Shown here: positions 686 to 8,110 of the stretch, in pieces
Layout: each line of letters starts with the position of its first letter
Numbering within the stretch: the first letter of the stretch is position 1
Source: Ruminococcus sp.
GTDB taxonomy: Bacteria; Bacillota_A; Clostridia; Oscillospirales; Ruminococcaceae
Direction: 5' to 3'
Assembly (NCBI RefSeq): GCF_024684275.1
Contig: NZ_JAIKXF010000050.1
Coordinates: forward strand, 1 to 26,402
DNA length: 26,402 nucleotides
Notes under the pieces: generated by a model
What the model saw: the letters and a program-made list of their open reading frames with translations, nothing else
The model's database searches: none
Told to the model about the DNA's origin: nothing
Made by a program: the position numbers and the translations under genes

Positions 686-784
686 TTAAGATTCCTTGAT
701 GCTGCCGCCCCATTCAACAACTGTGAAGCCTTTTGTAAAATCGAAGCGTGTGCGGCAATTTACTGCGTCCCAGCCATTCTTATG
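686..784 (-). pseudogene. Eroded remnant of the GH9 C-terminal module
   Basis: Just downstream of the dockerin gene stop, minus-strand sequence reads NGWDAVNCRTRFDFTKGF then TVVEWGGSIKES and a stop (686-688). These pieces match three separate parts of the C-terminal domain of the GH9 protein at 4347-8012: the segment before 4781-4788, the segment 4669-4716, and the last residues at 4360-4392. The joins fall on CGTCCCAG (766-773) and AAGCCTTTT (726-734), each of which is present at both ends of the matching deleted stretch in the GH9 gene (72 bp and 285 bp, both multiples of three). The remnant has no start codon and is out of frame with the dockerin gene. Confidence 0.75.
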
Positions 785-795
785 TCAGCGCCGTA

Positions 796-2238
796 TTAGA
801 CCTTCTGATCAGGCTCGACATAGGTAGTTATGGTTTTCTTGATAAGTTCTTTTCTCATAAGAACAAGGTCAAATATATCGAGCTTGTTGTCAAGATTAAA
901 GTCAGCTTCACCCCAGCTGTAAAGATCATTATCATATGCATTGAGCAGCCATTTCTGCAATGCTACAAGATCAGCGATGCTGAATTCACCGTCTCCGTTT
1001 ATATTTCCCGATACTTTAATCTTGGTTCTTATCACAAGATCCATTGAGCCATTGTCATACAGTGTTACCTCTGGCTGATCGTCGCACAGGAATTCAAAAT
1101 AATCTGCGGATCTGTAAAGATTTGCAAGACCGGTCTGATAGACCTGCGGATTGGATCCAACGGCATATATCGGACCTGTCATCATCCATCCACCCGGAAC
1201 ATTCGGTTCTTCAAATCGAATGTCCGTTCCGAATCCGCAGTAATGATGTTCCAGCAGATCATTCGGGATCAGTTCGCCTGTATCTTTGTCATAAACAGTG
1301 ATCCTTGTTTCTCCCTTTTTAAGGTCGGTCAGATCAGCAGACTTTTCCTCGGGGATAACTCTTTTTGTTTTCTTTTTCAGTCTGAACACAACGTCAGCTG
1401 TGTTGTTGTCATATTTCTTTACGGTAATATGATCTTCAGGTACAATAGTTCCGTTGTAATAACCCGCAGATTTTTCTTCTGTCTCCGGCAAGGAGTAACT
1501 TTCCGGTATATCAAGCAAGCCGAAGGAGAAATCGTAACCATTAAAGAAGTTTCCTAAATGTACAATTTCAGGGTTATTTCTTAATCCGGAGGGTTGTATA
1601 TTACAGTTGAGTTCACCTTCCGGAGTATCCTGACGTATATCAGTCCATATTCTTGATATTGCACCATCAGGAAGCGAAAGGAGTTCTCCGGTGTCATAAT
1701 CAACAAGGGAAACTCTCATATCTCCCGAAAGCAGTACAGTCTGCGCATTATCTATAACGGTACAGTCTGCAACAAGAGGATCTTTCATGTCTTCTTTCGA
1801 GAAAGGCGGATCTAATTCCCATACATAATTCGGTACAAACCACCATTTGATTGCGGCCTGACCATCTTTGACAGCCTGATATGCAGCTACTTTATAGGTG
1901 TCACCGGTTGAATTGTTATAGAAATATTTAGTTGAACACATCTTAAAGTTGTCGAGATATTCCTGTGATTCTTCACTCCAATTAAGACGGATACTGTTAT
2001 TGGAATCCATGCAGAAAACAACATAGTTATCCCTGACGGAGACAGCACCGTATTTTTTTACGTATTCCTTAAATTCGGCTTCACAGTCAGGCAGCCAGCT
2101 ATTAATATCATTCTCTGATCCATCAGTTGTTTCTTCTGAATAAGCATTCAGAGGCGTGAATAAATCCAGACTTTCTGCGGAAAAAGGAATAATAGCTATT
2201 GTTGCGGCTATCACAGCAGCCGCCAGTTTCTTTAACAT
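796..2238 (-). CDS. Secreted dockerin-containing protein of unknown function
   Basis: A 480-residue exported protein. Residues 1 to about 30 form a signal peptide (MLKK then a long Ala/Ile/Val core). Residues about 30-405 match no family I recognise; they are rich in Asp, Tyr and beta-type sequence and contain repeated VYDKDTGEL / VDYDTGELL phrases, suggesting beta-sandwich domains. Residues about 410-468 are a type I dockerin: the first calcium loop is N-I-N-G-D-G...D followed by LQKWLL, the second D-F-N-L-D-N-K-L-D-I-F-D followed by MRKELI. Dockerins bind cohesins, so the protein probably sits on a cellulosome-like scaffold at the cell surface. ATG 2238 is chosen because AGGTGA lies seven bases upstream and the promoter at 2290-2318 excludes an earlier in-frame Met. 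The C-terminus (TYVEPDQKV) stops where the GH9 protein continues (EYVEPDHRS) into another module, so this gene may be a truncated version. Confidence 0.85.
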   Translation of the reverse strand: MLKKLAAAVIAATIAIIPFSAESLDLFTPLNAYSEETTDGSENDINSWLPDCEAEFKEYVKKYGAVSVRDNYVVFCMDSNNSIRLNWSEESQEYLDNFKMCSTKYFYNNSTGDTYKVAAYQAVKDGQAAIKWWFVPNYVWELDPPFSKEDMKDPLVADCTVIDNAQTVLLSGDMRVSLVDYDTGELLSLPDGAISRIWTDIRQDTPEGELNCNIQPSGLRNNPEIVHLGNFFNGYDFSFGLLDIPESYSLPETEEKSAGYYNGTIVPEDHITVKKYDNNTADVVFRLKKKTKRVIPEEKSADLTDLKKGETRITVYDKDTGELIPNDLLEHHYCGFGTDIRFEEPNVPGGWMMTGPIYAVGSNPQVYQTGLANLYRSADYFEFLCDDQPEVTLYDNGSMDLVIRTKIKVSGNINGDGEFSIADLVALQKWLLNAYDNDLYSWGEADFNLDNKLDIFDLVLMRKELIKKTITTYVEPDQKV

Positions 2239-2289
2239 TATAAAGTCACCTGCCCTCCCAGAATTTGCAGCATTTAACTGCTTAATCAC

Positions 2290-2318
2290 ATTATACAACG
2301 ATATTTCACTGAATGCAA
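2290..2318 (-). promoter_or_regulatory. Promoter of the dockerin gene
   Basis: Minus strand TTGCAT (2313-2318), 17-base spacer, TATAAT (2290-2295). The predicted start near 2283 gives a leader of about 45 nt, consistent with ATG at 2238. Confidence 0.7.
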
Positions 2319-4218: not shown

Positions 4219-4353
4219 ATGTCAGATACAAGAGAACTACTGCCTGTCCTGCTTTCTGAGAAGAGCAGAAAGATCAAAGGCTGCATATATAATATAAAGA
4301 ATTCCGCCCATCAGGGGCGGAATTTCTTTTATTTATTTAATTGCTATTATTGA
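4219..4353 (+). pseudogene. Truncated ORF with intact promoter and RBS, possibly a Fic-protein N-terminus
   Basis: ATG 4219 follows a perfect AGGAGG at six bases and a good promoter. The 44 residues begin MSDTRELLPVLLSEKSRKIK, then GCIYNI; after that the frame runs into the hairpin at 4299-4325 and ends in low-complexity sequence (NFFYLFNCYY). The opening resembles the N-terminus of Fic/Fido-domain proteins (a charged helix, LLxEKxxxKxKGxIY), which normally continues into a domain of over 200 residues. I therefore read it as the 5' stub of a gene cut off at the GH9 terminator, with low confidence in the Fic identity. The alternative is a genuine 44-residue small protein. The final seven bases overlap the 3' end of the convergent GH9 gene. 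Confidence 0.4.
4299..4335. terminator. Bidirectional rho-independent terminator
   Basis: GAATTCCGCCC (4299-4309), loop ATCAG, GGGCGGAATTT (4315-4325). T-rich sequence follows on the plus strand and TTTATATT on the minus strand. It lies just past the GH9 stop and probably ends that transcript; it also falls inside the truncated plus-strand ORF. Confidence 0.75.
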
Positions 4354-7300
4354 ACTTTGCTGCCGCCCCATTCTATGACTGTAAAGCCTTTTCTCTCGAA
4401 GGTATCAAGCTCCTGCGGCTCGATGTTCACAGCATTTTCAAGGGGAACATACGCCATAAATACGCGCAGCAAGCTGTCAGGTCTCGGTGTTATGTCAAGC
4501 TTGGCAGAATCAGTATAGGCATCACTCTGGAACGATATAAGGTTATACTTGTTATGCTCCATCAGCGGCAGCCAGTATACGATAAACTCGTTCATTTCTT
4601 CCTCAGTGAGTCCCATATATGTGAGCTTTTCCTTGAGGAAGCTCTCGGTATCACTGCCTGCAACACAGAAGCCTTTGGTAAAATCGAAGCGTGTGCGGCA
4701 ATTTACTGCGTCCCAGAACAGGTACTTATGATGTGTGCCGTCAGCCTTGTTCAGAAGTGTGCCGTCGGGAGAAGCTGTTACGTCCCAGCCATTATTGTAT
4801 CTCGGGTATGTCGTTGAGAGTTCTGCTTCCGTCAGCTCCAGCTCAACATGAACATCGGTCTCTTTCTCGGGATACAGGTATATTACAGGCTTATCCATGT
4901 ATACCTCATAAACGATCGTCGGAGTTTTACCATCGTCTCCTACTGTTCTGATCCAGCCGTACCGACCATCGTATTCGGTAAATATCCATTTATCGTTATT
5001 ATCCTGATATCCTAATTCCGAGAGAAGAGTATTTTTATAGATAATAGCTACAGGTTCAAAGCTCTCATCGGGACCAAGATATAATTTCAGACCGTCTGTA
5101 ACAGTACGCACCGGACCGCCGAAGCTGCGATGATCAGGTTCTACATATTCTGCTGCATTTTTACTGACAAGCTCTTTTTTCATACGAGTAAGGTCGAATA
5201 TATCGAGCTTACCGTCCTTGCAGAAATCAGCAGCCTTCCAGTCGGCAAGAGAATACTTTGCAGAGCCCAGCAGCCACTTCTGGAAAATGACTACATCAGA
5301 TACATTGAATTCGCCGTCAGCATTAACATCTCCGGATGCAGGCTTGACAACAGTTTCTGTGGAAGCCTCGTCCTGAAGGAATGATACTACCCATGCAAGT
5401 GAAGCATTGCTGCTGAGAGAAGCTTGATTGGTAGACCATGATTCTACGGAATCAGCATAAAATCTCTCGGAAGGATCATCCGGATGTCCATATCCCATTC
5501 CCATAGCCCTCACATATTGGTCAACAGCCTTTGCAGTCGGACCGCTTACGATCACTCCGTCAGGTGCCTGAGGCAGAGACTTGTCGATCTCATGCTGCCA
5601 GTATTCATGTGACGGATTCTTTGTACAGTAAGAACCATAACCTGAAATGAATGAGTATGACATAGGATTGTTGCCAAGAAGATAATCCATACCTCTTGTC
5701 ACGCCGTTCAGGTACTTATCATCACCTGTCAGGTCATAGGCATAAGCCATAGCGATCATATTATTCAAAGCGCGTCCGTTGGAATCATATTCAAAGCCGC
5801 GGTAATATATTTCAGGACCCCAGCCTGTGTCATAGTAACCGGGAGCGTCATACTTATACGGGATACCGTAACCTTGGCTTTCTTCTTCATTGATGAAATC
5901 GTCTGCCGTTTCAAGAAGTGAACTATTCAGCATCTCAGTCTGTTCATCTGTGAGCAGATACTTGTGCATCAGCAGCGACATAGAGCCTGCTGCGGCAATG
6001 TTTTCGCTTCTGAACAATGTGAATGTGAATTCTCCGGGCTGGTTTGATCCGCCTGTTATCCTTGGGGAAAACGTGAAAGCACCTTTATAATCGGAAAGAT
6101 CAGCAAGGTAGTCAGCGGCGTCTTCATCTTCCATTAACTTTGAAGTGATATAAAGCTCACAGGCTGCCCAGTAGGCATCAGCTGAGACCTCACTGTCAGG
6201 GTATAAATTCGTTCCCTGCCACAGAATTTGAGGAGCATAGAATGATACTTCGTTAGTATACTCATCAAATTCTGCTTCATACCAGTTTGCCTTGTATGCC
6301 TGATATGCCTCCTTAGCACTTTCAAGGAGCTTATCTGCATATTCAGCGTCATAAGCCTTCCAAAGTCTTGCTCCCTGTGCCGCACAGGCTGCGTAATTCA
6401 GAGTTGCCGCAAATGTAGGCGGCTTGATGACACGTATATCCTCATAATTGACATAATCAGGCCTGTTGGTAAGACTGCGCAATATATGATCGTTTATGCA
6501 GTGATAATACATACCTGAATATTTGCCCCATGTTTTCTCATCGGGCTGAACCTTCATGCGTGACATAAAATCCAGCTCATATCTGCATTCGTCAAGGATA
6601 TCGGGGTATTTATTGCCAGATTCGGGAATAACAACAGTACCCGAGCCGTCAGCGAATTTTTTGATCCCGTCTTGTGAATAGGTCGCGCGCTCGTACATAT
6701 TCTGGAGCGTCCACAGCGAAATACCGCCCTCTGTCATATTCTTGCTATGGTCATCTGCTTTATACCAGCCTCCCGATGCATCGAGCTTTGAAGAAGCATA
6801 GTAATGAGTTGCTTCATCATCTGCCAGATATTCACGTTTCCATTGAGTCTGAACATAGCCTGTTTCTGTCTTATGTACACCTGCGTGTGCAAGTTTATTT
6901 TTTTCACCCGATGTGATATATTCTGACTCGATATCTGCACCTGAACGGTTCTGATAGAAATAATTCAGTGCATTGGTCAGCATATTATGTTCGCTGTCGC
7001 TGTAAATATCGTTACCTATCCTGAACAGGAACGATCTCCAGTTCTCGCCTTTGATACGGATATAGTATTCGCCGACCTCATCAAACGCCGTAAAGTCTAT
7101 CTTGCATACATTATCGCCCGAATCAGCGTCCTTCGTCGGCTCGCCTGTTCTGCCCGTATAAACAACAACATCATCAGAAACTCTTACTATCTCATAGTCA
7201 TAGACCTTATCAAGCTTGAAATACTTTGCACCGTAGGTGAAATCTCCTTTATTATTGCCAAGTGTAGCTGTTTTTTCAAGGTTCTGGTAGTATCCAAGCT

Positions 7301-8012
7301 GATTAACAGATATAAAGTTATTCTCAAGTCCGCTGAAACCGCGGGCGGTATAGCCGTAGTTACATACAGGCGGACAGGTTATGTCATCTGTCAGGTCCTC
7401 AATGGACATATCATCGAACCAGAGCTCATCACCGCTCTTAGCATTTCCACTATACTTGGTGCCTCTTGCATACTGGAAGGCCCATTGAGCTGATTCAACA
7501 TCATTCAAAGGCTTGAATATTCCCTCATATGTCTGCCATTCGGTCGTAAGCCTTACAGAACTCGAAGGCCATTGACCGCCCATATCAGGTCCCATGTGCA
7601 TATCGTTTGTCGAACCGTCAAGCACAAAGTATTCCTCGCTGTCGCTGAGATTGCCGATAAAGGAATAAAGCTCCATACCCTCACGCTTCGCCTTTGACTT
7701 AAAGCTTACCTTGTACTCGTGACCTGCCTTGAAGCTGAGATTCCTGTGTCTGAACTGGAGATCCCATCTTTCCTTGTCGGCACCTTCCGGTATTAGGATC
7801 TTGATGTGTACATTTCCATCAGAAAGCTCAAAGTCCTGCCTCGCAGGGGATGTTTCCGCAGTATGCCATGGAATCATCTTATGAGAAAATGATGTCTCTC
7901 CAAGAAGCTCATAGGCAGAAGCCCTGACAGGCTCCGCGATACTGACACCCGTCGGCACGAGCATTGCCGCTGACAGTATCCCTGCAGCGATCTTCTTATA
8001 ATTTTTATGCAT
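4347..8012 (-). CDS. Dockerin-bearing GH9-family protein with altered catalytic residues (CBM4/16-Ig-GH9-dockerin-SH3-like)
   Basis: A 1221-residue secreted protein. Residues 1-33: signal peptide. About 40-205: a CBM4/16-like (CenC-type) carbohydrate-binding domain. About 230-335: the Ig-like domain that precedes many GH9 enzymes (FISVNQLGY...). About 340-880: a GH9 (alpha/alpha)6 barrel. About 894-952: type I dockerin (D-V-N-A-D-G...D; D-F-C-K-D-G...D). About 970-1030: SH3-like; about 1040-1221: a domain with KPVIYLYPE and a WGG C-terminus. GH9 enzymes cut beta-1,4-glucan with a DAGDH aspartate base and a C-terminal glutamate acid. Here DAGDH reads KADDH (418-422), the PHHR-type motif reads PSHE (800-803) and the TNE acid reads TNQ (Q863), so hydrolysis is doubtful. 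Start 8012 is chosen for GGGAGGG six bases upstream and the signal peptide; an in-frame Met 25 codons earlier lacks a good RBS. Confidence 0.88.
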   Translation of the reverse strand: MHKNYKKIAAGILSAAMLVPTGVSIAEPVRASAYELLGETSFSHKMIPWHTAETSPARQDFELSDGNVHIKILIPEGADKERWDLQFRHRNLSFKAGHEYKVSFKSKAKREGMELYSFIGNLSDSEEYFVLDGSTNDMHMGPDMGGQWPSSSVRLTTEWQTYEGIFKPLNDVESAQWAFQYARGTKYSGNAKSGDELWFDDMSIEDLTDDITCPPVCNYGYTARGFSGLENNFISVNQLGYYQNLEKTATLGNNKGDFTYGAKYFKLDKVYDYEIVRVSDDVVVYTGRTGEPTKDADSGDNVCKIDFTAFDEVGEYYIRIKGENWRSFLFRIGNDIYSDSEHNMLTNALNYFYQNRSGADIESEYITSGEKNKLAHAGVHKTETGYVQTQWKREYLADDEATHYYASSKLDASGGWYKADDHSKNMTEGGISLWTLQNMYERATYSQDGIKKFADGSGTVVIPESGNKYPDILDECRYELDFMSRMKVQPDEKTWGKYSGMYYHCINDHILRSLTNRPDYVNYEDIRVIKPPTFAATLNYAACAAQGARLWKAYDAEYADKLLESAKEAYQAYKANWYEAEFDEYTNEVSFYAPQILWQGTNLYPDSEVSADAYWAACELYITSKLMEDEDAADYLADLSDYKGAFTFSPRITGGSNQPGEFTFTLFRSENIAAAGSMSLLMHKYLLTDEQTEMLNSSLLETADDFINEEESQGYGIPYKYDAPGYYDTGWGPEIYYRGFEYDSNGRALNNMIAMAYAYDLTGDDKYLNGVTRGMDYLLGNNPMSYSFISGYGSYCTKNPSHEYWQHEIDKSLPQAPDGVIVSGPTAKAVDQYVRAMGMGYGHPDDPSERFYADSVESWSTNQASLSSNASLAWVVSFLQDEASTETVVKPASGDVNADGEFNVSDVVIFQKWLLGSAKYSLADWKAADFCKDGKLDIFDLTRMKKELVSKNAAEYVEPDHRSFGGPVRTVTDGLKLYLGPDESFEPVAIIYKNTLLSELGYQDNNDKWIFTEYDGRYGWIRTVGDDGKTPTIVYEVYMDKPVIYLYPEKETDVHVELELTEAELSTTYPRYNNGWDVTASPDGTLLNKADGTHHKYLFWDAVNCRTRFDFTKGFCVAGSDTESFLKEKLTYMGLTEEEMNEFIVYWLPLMEHNKYNLISFQSDAYTDSAKLDITPRPDSLLRVFMAYVPLENAVNIEPQELDTFERKGFTVIEWGGSKVQ

Positions 8013-8110
8013 GATATTCCCTCCCATCATATCTTTTAAAACAGTACAGCAGATACTGTACGATTTCAGCTGTGATTCTTTATTCATCAGGTTTAATTCT
8101 CTTTGATTAC

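Follow-up and report, generated by a model that had tools for sequence, protein, structure and literature searches.

A family of dockerin-bearing GH9-fold proteins in Ruminococcus with replaced catalytic and glucan-cleft residues

CbhA and CelK of Clostridium thermocellum are cellobiohydrolases with the architecture CBM4-Ig-GH9 (carbohydrate-binding module, immunoglobulin-like domain and glycoside hydrolase [GH] family 9 domain; PDB 1ut9 and 1rq5). In GH9, the base is the second Asp of the DAGD motif and the acid is a Glu (PMC4071793, PMC5651568), and the accessible text of PMC5651568 names the Cbh9A residues that touch the glucan chain. Here, we describe a protein of 1,221 amino acids (aa), termed the query, which is encoded on the minus strand at 4347..8012 of a 26,402-nucleotide stretch of Ruminococcus sp. 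DNA (the window; positions 1 to 26,402 of NZ_JAIKXF010000050.1, assembly GCF_024684275.1). All coordinates are in window numbering, and residue numbers are those of the query unless CbhA is named. The query resembles CbhA and CelK in fold, CBM4, Ig domain and GH9 homology, and the CelK model covers its residues 35 to 950, dockerin included. It differs from them in the replacement of two of the three triad residues and of most subsites, in an extra C-terminal cassette and in its score of 409.6 against an NCBIfam CelK equivalog cut-off of 1700.

Two other kinds of described proteins are comparable. Pseudoglycosidases such as YKL-39 and klotho, as treated in the accessible part of PMC7828330, have kept a glycosidase fold without its catalytic residues; they are animal proteins of other GH families, whereas the query also lacks most tested subsites and has several paralogues per genome. 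CttA of Ruminococcus flavefaciens is a noncatalytic, cellulose-binding dockerin protein (PMC2930009, PMC2721979), which the query would resemble as a noncatalytic dockerin protein; CttA, however, carries a pair of CBMs of a novel type and is bound to ScaE, and the text seen of these papers does not mention descent from an enzyme.

The query belongs to GH9 by its match to PF00759, which is over the cut-off, and by its predicted (alpha/alpha)6 fold, and its predicted dockerin marks it as a putative cellulosome subunit. It was aligned to solved GH9 chains, of which CbhA 1rq5 and 1ut9 were the best relatives. In comparison with 1ut9, K418 falls on D383, D421 on D386, S801 and E803 on H737 and R739, and Q863 on E795; the catalytic triad Asp, Asp, Glu thus reads K418, D421, Q863. 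The codons for K418 (AAA) and Q863 (CAA) were read directly, and G420 of the DAGDH motif is also altered, to D. A preliminary description of this DNA had read the motifs GGWYKADDH, PSHE and STNQ and judged that the protein appears catalytically dead; the readings hold, and the loss of the canonical catalytic apparatus is supported. It had also named a Glu taking over the acid position as a possible objection, and no other Glu was found there in the alignment to the solved chains. Judged by its residues, the query is very probably not a hydrolase working by the GH9 mechanism.

The losses extend to the glucan cleft and to many other proteins. A protein search with the query gave 693 matches, the best 120 of which were combined with the query into a set of 121 proteins. 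Proteins with D418, D421, H801 and E863 all present were called intact (50 proteins) and all others eroded (71 proteins), a ratio that is skewed towards eroded because the 120 are the best matches to an eroded query. Far from being the single odd protein of the preliminary description, the query is therefore a member of a large family, with close homologues (P0002 to P0016) that are 72 to 90% identical over the searched part. Among the 71 eroded proteins, position 418 is altered in 65, 801 in 64, 863 in 40 and 421 in 26; P0046 keeps the triad and lacks H801 alone. Intact CBM4-Ig-GH9-dockerin paralogues of related genomes, such as L099 and L129 of strain ATCC 19208 (which over residues 226 to 885 share about 56% and 41% identity with the query), have the same module order through the dockerin but differ in their intact DAGDH, HHR and TNE/VNE motifs.

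The subsite residues compared (+2 to -3) were taken from PMC5651568 (from its accessible text) and not chosen by the present comparison; G546, S547 and E606 were left out, because their loops are variable or gapped within the intact group itself. The query has replacements at seven of the nine residues (W473 by L511, G553 by N602, W616 by S669, W678 by Y742, H737 by S801, R739 by E803 and T797 by S865), five of them nonconservatively (W473L, G553N, W616S, H737S and R739E). L476 and Y555 (CbhA numbering) are kept, so that only Y555 remains among G553, Y555, W616, W678, H737 and R739. Triad and subsites together, 9 of 12 sites are replaced in the query, and the 50 intact homologues show no variation at any of the 12 (for H737 and the triad, this follows from how the group was defined). 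The 71 eroded proteins keep the ancestral residue in an average of 31% of cells over these 12 columns, compared to 73% (median column, 89%) over 248 other GH9 columns that are ≥98% conserved in the intact proteins. Permutation gave P = 2e-5 for the 12 columns and P = 2.3e-4 for the eight subsite columns that do not define the groups, values that are a guide only, because the sequences are related.

These replacements bear on the suggestion of the preliminary description that the protein binds but does not cut cellulose, if the GH9 cleft is taken to hold the chain. Pseudoglycosidases that retain binding are known (accessible part of PMC7828330), the text seen of PMC4071793 briefly suggests a "maintained binding role" for GH9 proteins whose residues are altered, 13 of 18 orthologues have Trp at W473, and the query keeps Y555. 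Nevertheless, W616, W678, H737, R739, G553 and W473 have become S, Y, S, E, N and L in the query, and on the whole the subsite losses appear to oppose a cellulose-holding cleft. They would weigh against cellulose as the ligand of the pseudo-catalytic domain, other ligands being possible, and we regard an uncut cellulose chain in the cleft as improbable.

The query's orthologue group comprises 18 proteins including the query, usually 17 with data per position; P0017, which the trees group here, was omitted from the counts (its residues at 418, 803 and 863 are Lys, Ser and Ala). Position 418 is Lys in 14 of 17 and Arg in 3, and D421, S801 and E803 are constant (17/17). Position 863 is Glu in 11 of 17 and Gln in 6, with Gln in isolates MA2007, YL228 and ATCC 19208 and Glu in YAD2003. 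Since 418 is Lys or Arg throughout but 863 is Glu or Gln, the loss of the first Asp is old and the acid position varied later. Of the K and Q changes for which the preliminary description had proposed to look in orthologues, K418 is thus widespread and Q863 is confined to a minority, and Q863 does not define the group. With the base Asp retained in all orthologues with data and Glu in most, an altered enzyme might be considered, in which D421 would act with a different helper or on another substrate. This is unlikely, given Gln at the acid position in six orthologues, including the ATCC 19208 protein, and lysine in place of the partner Asp. The same E-to-Q change distinguishes CbhA chain 1rq5 from 1ut9, and we take 1rq5 to be a mutant that was made inactive.

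A census covered 15 genomes (matches to the query at E up to 1e-20), which were chosen for holding loci from a scan with an alignment of eroded proteins; six are R. flavefaciens isolates, and the rest are metagenome bins named Ruminococcus or Oscillospiraceae. They contain 65 CBM4-Ig-GH9 genes, of which 24 are intact (one or two in each genome) and 41 are eroded (one to eight in each); total GH9 matches number 10 to 17 per genome, and the scoring covers CBM4-Ig-GH9 genes only. On a tree of 94 rows with motif columns masked (a quick LG+G4 run with a long-branch warning), there are at least three switches between intact and eroded. The tree contains a 50-row eroded clade (SH-like approximate likelihood ratio test, 97), a further group in which 14 eroded rows stand apart together with an intact protein from strain 007c, and the lone eroded rows P0067 and P0077, of which FastTree puts P0067 inside the intact clade. 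The divergent second eroded lineage beside the strain 007c protein (L113 to L124 and L137 to L140) reads, for example, GGWYTDDNC ... TCNSV. Eroded genes may also lie close together: three eroded GH9 genes are found within 16 kb in genome G005 (UBA1190, locus L006; contig C34, 82241-98084), and strain MA2007 has a pair spaced within 11 kb.

Omega was 0.302 over the GH9 part in eight orthologues (the null run with omega fixed at 1 also had kappa fixed at 2), and the sequences show that purifying selection maintains the barrel, Ig domain, CBM4 and dockerin. An enzyme fold under selection whose catalytic residues are gone corresponds to a pseudoglycosidase, as far as can be judged from these alignments. 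As the genes are kept intact by selection, they probably serve a job other than cutting cellulose. A decaying or misassembled gene is very improbable and largely refuted: 3 of the 41 eroded census copies are split into two open reading frames (L077, L125 and L141), but full-length orthologues are present in isolates MA2007, YL228, ATCC 19208 and YAD2003, and omega is about 0.3. The preliminary description was right that the gene is not decaying; the strain-specific decay that it had allowed for as an objection is rejected, like sequencing error, because more than one isolate has an orthologue and because of the omega value.

Selection on the cleft itself bears on the main rival explanation, in which the barrel persists only as a rigid connector of CBM4 and dockerin and the cleft drifts unused. 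Cleft columns have a higher ratio of nonsynonymous to synonymous changes (dN/dS) than the rest of GH9 in three eroded groups out of the four compared (0.33 versus 0.25, 0.31 versus 0.21 and 0.32 versus 0.18), and the once-invariant columns are among the more variable ones of the eroded family (entropy percentiles: 418, 91st; 420, 96th; 863, 88th), with at least 16 changes between Glu and non-Glu at 863 on the tree of eroded rows. However, the cleft of the orthologue group is still under purifying selection (dN/dS of 0.33), that of the fourth eroded group (four sequences) evolves no faster than the rest (0.14 versus 0.16), and none of the 17 orthologues with data departs from K/R418, S801 and E803. 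We consider a structural spacer possible, though on balance unlikely.

Starting from what can be read directly (residues, conservation, selection, predicted fold and module order), we propose that the query is a secreted, dockerin-bearing pseudo-GH9 protein that does not hydrolyze cellulose by the GH9 mechanism. The dockerin would plug it into the cellulosome and the CBM4 would hold it on plant-wall glucan, while the barrel would serve as a recognition module, its remodelled cleft being specific to each paralogue group and binding something other than a cellulose chain; the SH3-like domain and C-terminal module would form a cassette common to other dockerin proteins of related bacteria. We give this full reading of the query an even chance. 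More tentatively, ruminococci might on more than one occasion have converted the GH9 barrel into a multicopy noncatalytic recognition repertoire on the cellulosome, with a cleft per paralogue group for sensing or gripping different plant-wall or other ligands. The CBM4 Trp/Tyr columns conserved in the intact set stay in 63 to 70 of 69 to 70 eroded rows. Several observations weigh against the proposed reading. Retained D421 together with E863 in 11 of 17 orthologues may permit weak or changed catalysis. Greater variability of the cleft would also fit relaxed constraint and a spacer role. Across the family, subsite loss is partial and uneven: among 70 eroded rows with data, R739 persists in 39 and L476 in 44, while 31 have Trp at W473, a residue kept in most orthologues although it is Leu in the query. 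Other cleft positions differ from one orthologue to another, W616 being replaced by Ser in 8, Cys in 8 and Ile in 1 and retained as Trp in 1. In the CBM4, F68 is kept in 6 of 69 and H180 in 3 of 70 eroded rows, and both are altered in the query; these are well-conserved positions of the intact set, conserved columns not being equated with glycan contacts.

GH9 gene counts are commonly taken as cellulolytic capacity, yet 41 of the 65 CBM4-Ig-GH9 genes in the 15 chosen genomes are eroded. In the accessible text of PMC2930009, PMC2721979, PMC4081043, PMC5301203 and PMC3672088, GH9-dockerin genes are counted as enzymes and lost active sites are not discussed; public records call P0003, P0009 and P0013 plainly "glycoside hydrolase family 9 protein." An inactive cellulase in a beetle appears in the part seen of PMC10981690, and we recognized no report of inactive GH9 cellulosome subunits in Ruminococcus among the papers listed by the literature searches, most subscription journals and supplements lying outside them. 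If the eroded proteins are recognition or structural subunits, cellulosomes contain a class of enzyme-derived noncatalytic parts. Because a single strain also has intact paralogues with this architecture, the two kinds can be compared directly, side by side.

Past the dockerin, an extension of about 270 residues consists of an SH3-like domain and then a strongly conserved module near KPVIYLYPE, which is found in 30 of the 71 eroded and 0 of the 50 intact proteins. A search with residues 955 to 1221 matched 541 proteins, the best 120 of which include pseudo-GH9, GH8, leucine-rich repeat and unclassified dockerin proteins. Seven genomes named R. flavefaciens have 2 to 13 matches each, and in a draw of 398 genomes from the phylum, 7 have a match, including the centre genome, G003. 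Synonymous divergence (dS) in the orthologue group is higher for the dockerin and cassette (4350-5333, minus strand) than for GH9, at about 1.0 for the module and 0.9 for the dockerin versus 0.41 for GH9; part of this excess may be general, because dS is also raised in the dockerin of the intact group (0.65 versus 0.43) and a small excess is seen in the other tail-bearing eroded group (0.59 versus 0.45). The modules of orthologues P0002 and P0004 share 95% identity with the query module, those of the non-GH9 dockerin proteins P0122 to P0126 share 86 to 87%, and those of orthologues P0003 and P0013 share only 81% and 77%, which, with the high dS, suggests that the cassette may have been swapped between paralogues. 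In an AlphaFold2 model (74-row alignment), the predicted local distance difference test score was <50 over nearly the whole C-terminal module, and thus no fold is claimed for it. A sequence profile search of PDB gave matches around the dockerin only, and Foldseek gave nothing at E ≤0.001, its top rows being mostly dockerins and SH3 domains. Weak Pfam scores under the cut-off (SH3_3, BRK and I42) were not relied on; the SH3-like assignment was accepted because the model backs it.

A second dockerin protein is encoded at 796-2298 (minus strand). Over about 440 to 480 residues, it shares 61 to 69% identity with dockerin proteins that the C-terminal module search retrieved, and a remnant of the module (689-772, minus strand; 75% identity over 28 aa, E = 3.6e-7) lies directly after its stop codon. 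As the remnant adjoins the stop and the relatives carry the full module, this gene seems to have lost the module by deletion.

Table 1. Features of the query gene in the window
Feature	Residues	Position	Strand	Basis or remark
Whole gene	1-1221	4347..8012	minus	ATG at 8012; signal peptide-CBM4-Ig-pseudo-GH9-dockerin-SH3-like-conserved C-terminal module
Probable signal peptide	1-33	7914..8012	minus	Judged by eye from sequence
CBM4/9 module (CBM_4_9)	38-180	7473..7901	minus	Pfam
CelD_N Ig-like domain	233-323	7044..7316	minus	Pfam
Pseudo-GH9 (alpha/alpha)6 barrel	343-876	5385..6986	minus	Pfam, 201.9 bits; predicted fold
Altered nucleophile/base motif GGWYKADDH	414-422	6747..6773	minus	K418, D420; base Asp D421 retained
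Altered substrate motif PSHE	800-803	5604..5615	minus	CbhA H737 to S, R739 to E
Acid position Q863	863	5424..5426	minus	Codon CAA, read directly
Type I dockerin (Dockerin_1)	894-948	5169..5333	minus	Pfam, 33.1 bits (cut-off, 22.9); confidently modelled
Bacterial SH3-like domain	973-1022	4947..5096	minus	Under Pfam cut-off; model confident
Conserved C-terminal module	1032-1221	4350..4919	minus	KPVIYLYPE starts at 1041

A GGGAGGG ribosome-binding site lies immediately 5' of the query gene. Between this site and a promoter-like site at 8156-8128, there is a terminator-like hairpin (8044-8061, minus strand), possibly a chance occurrence, as 2 such hairpins were seen in the region versus 0.7 expected. 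The gene order of the window was found at none of 15 loci (flanks up to 6 kb; 6 direct orthologues). At locus L023, the ABC ATPase gene has a homologue (58% over 301 aa) and the response regulator a weak match, and the 796-2298 dockerin protein was matched in part at 10 of the 15 loci.

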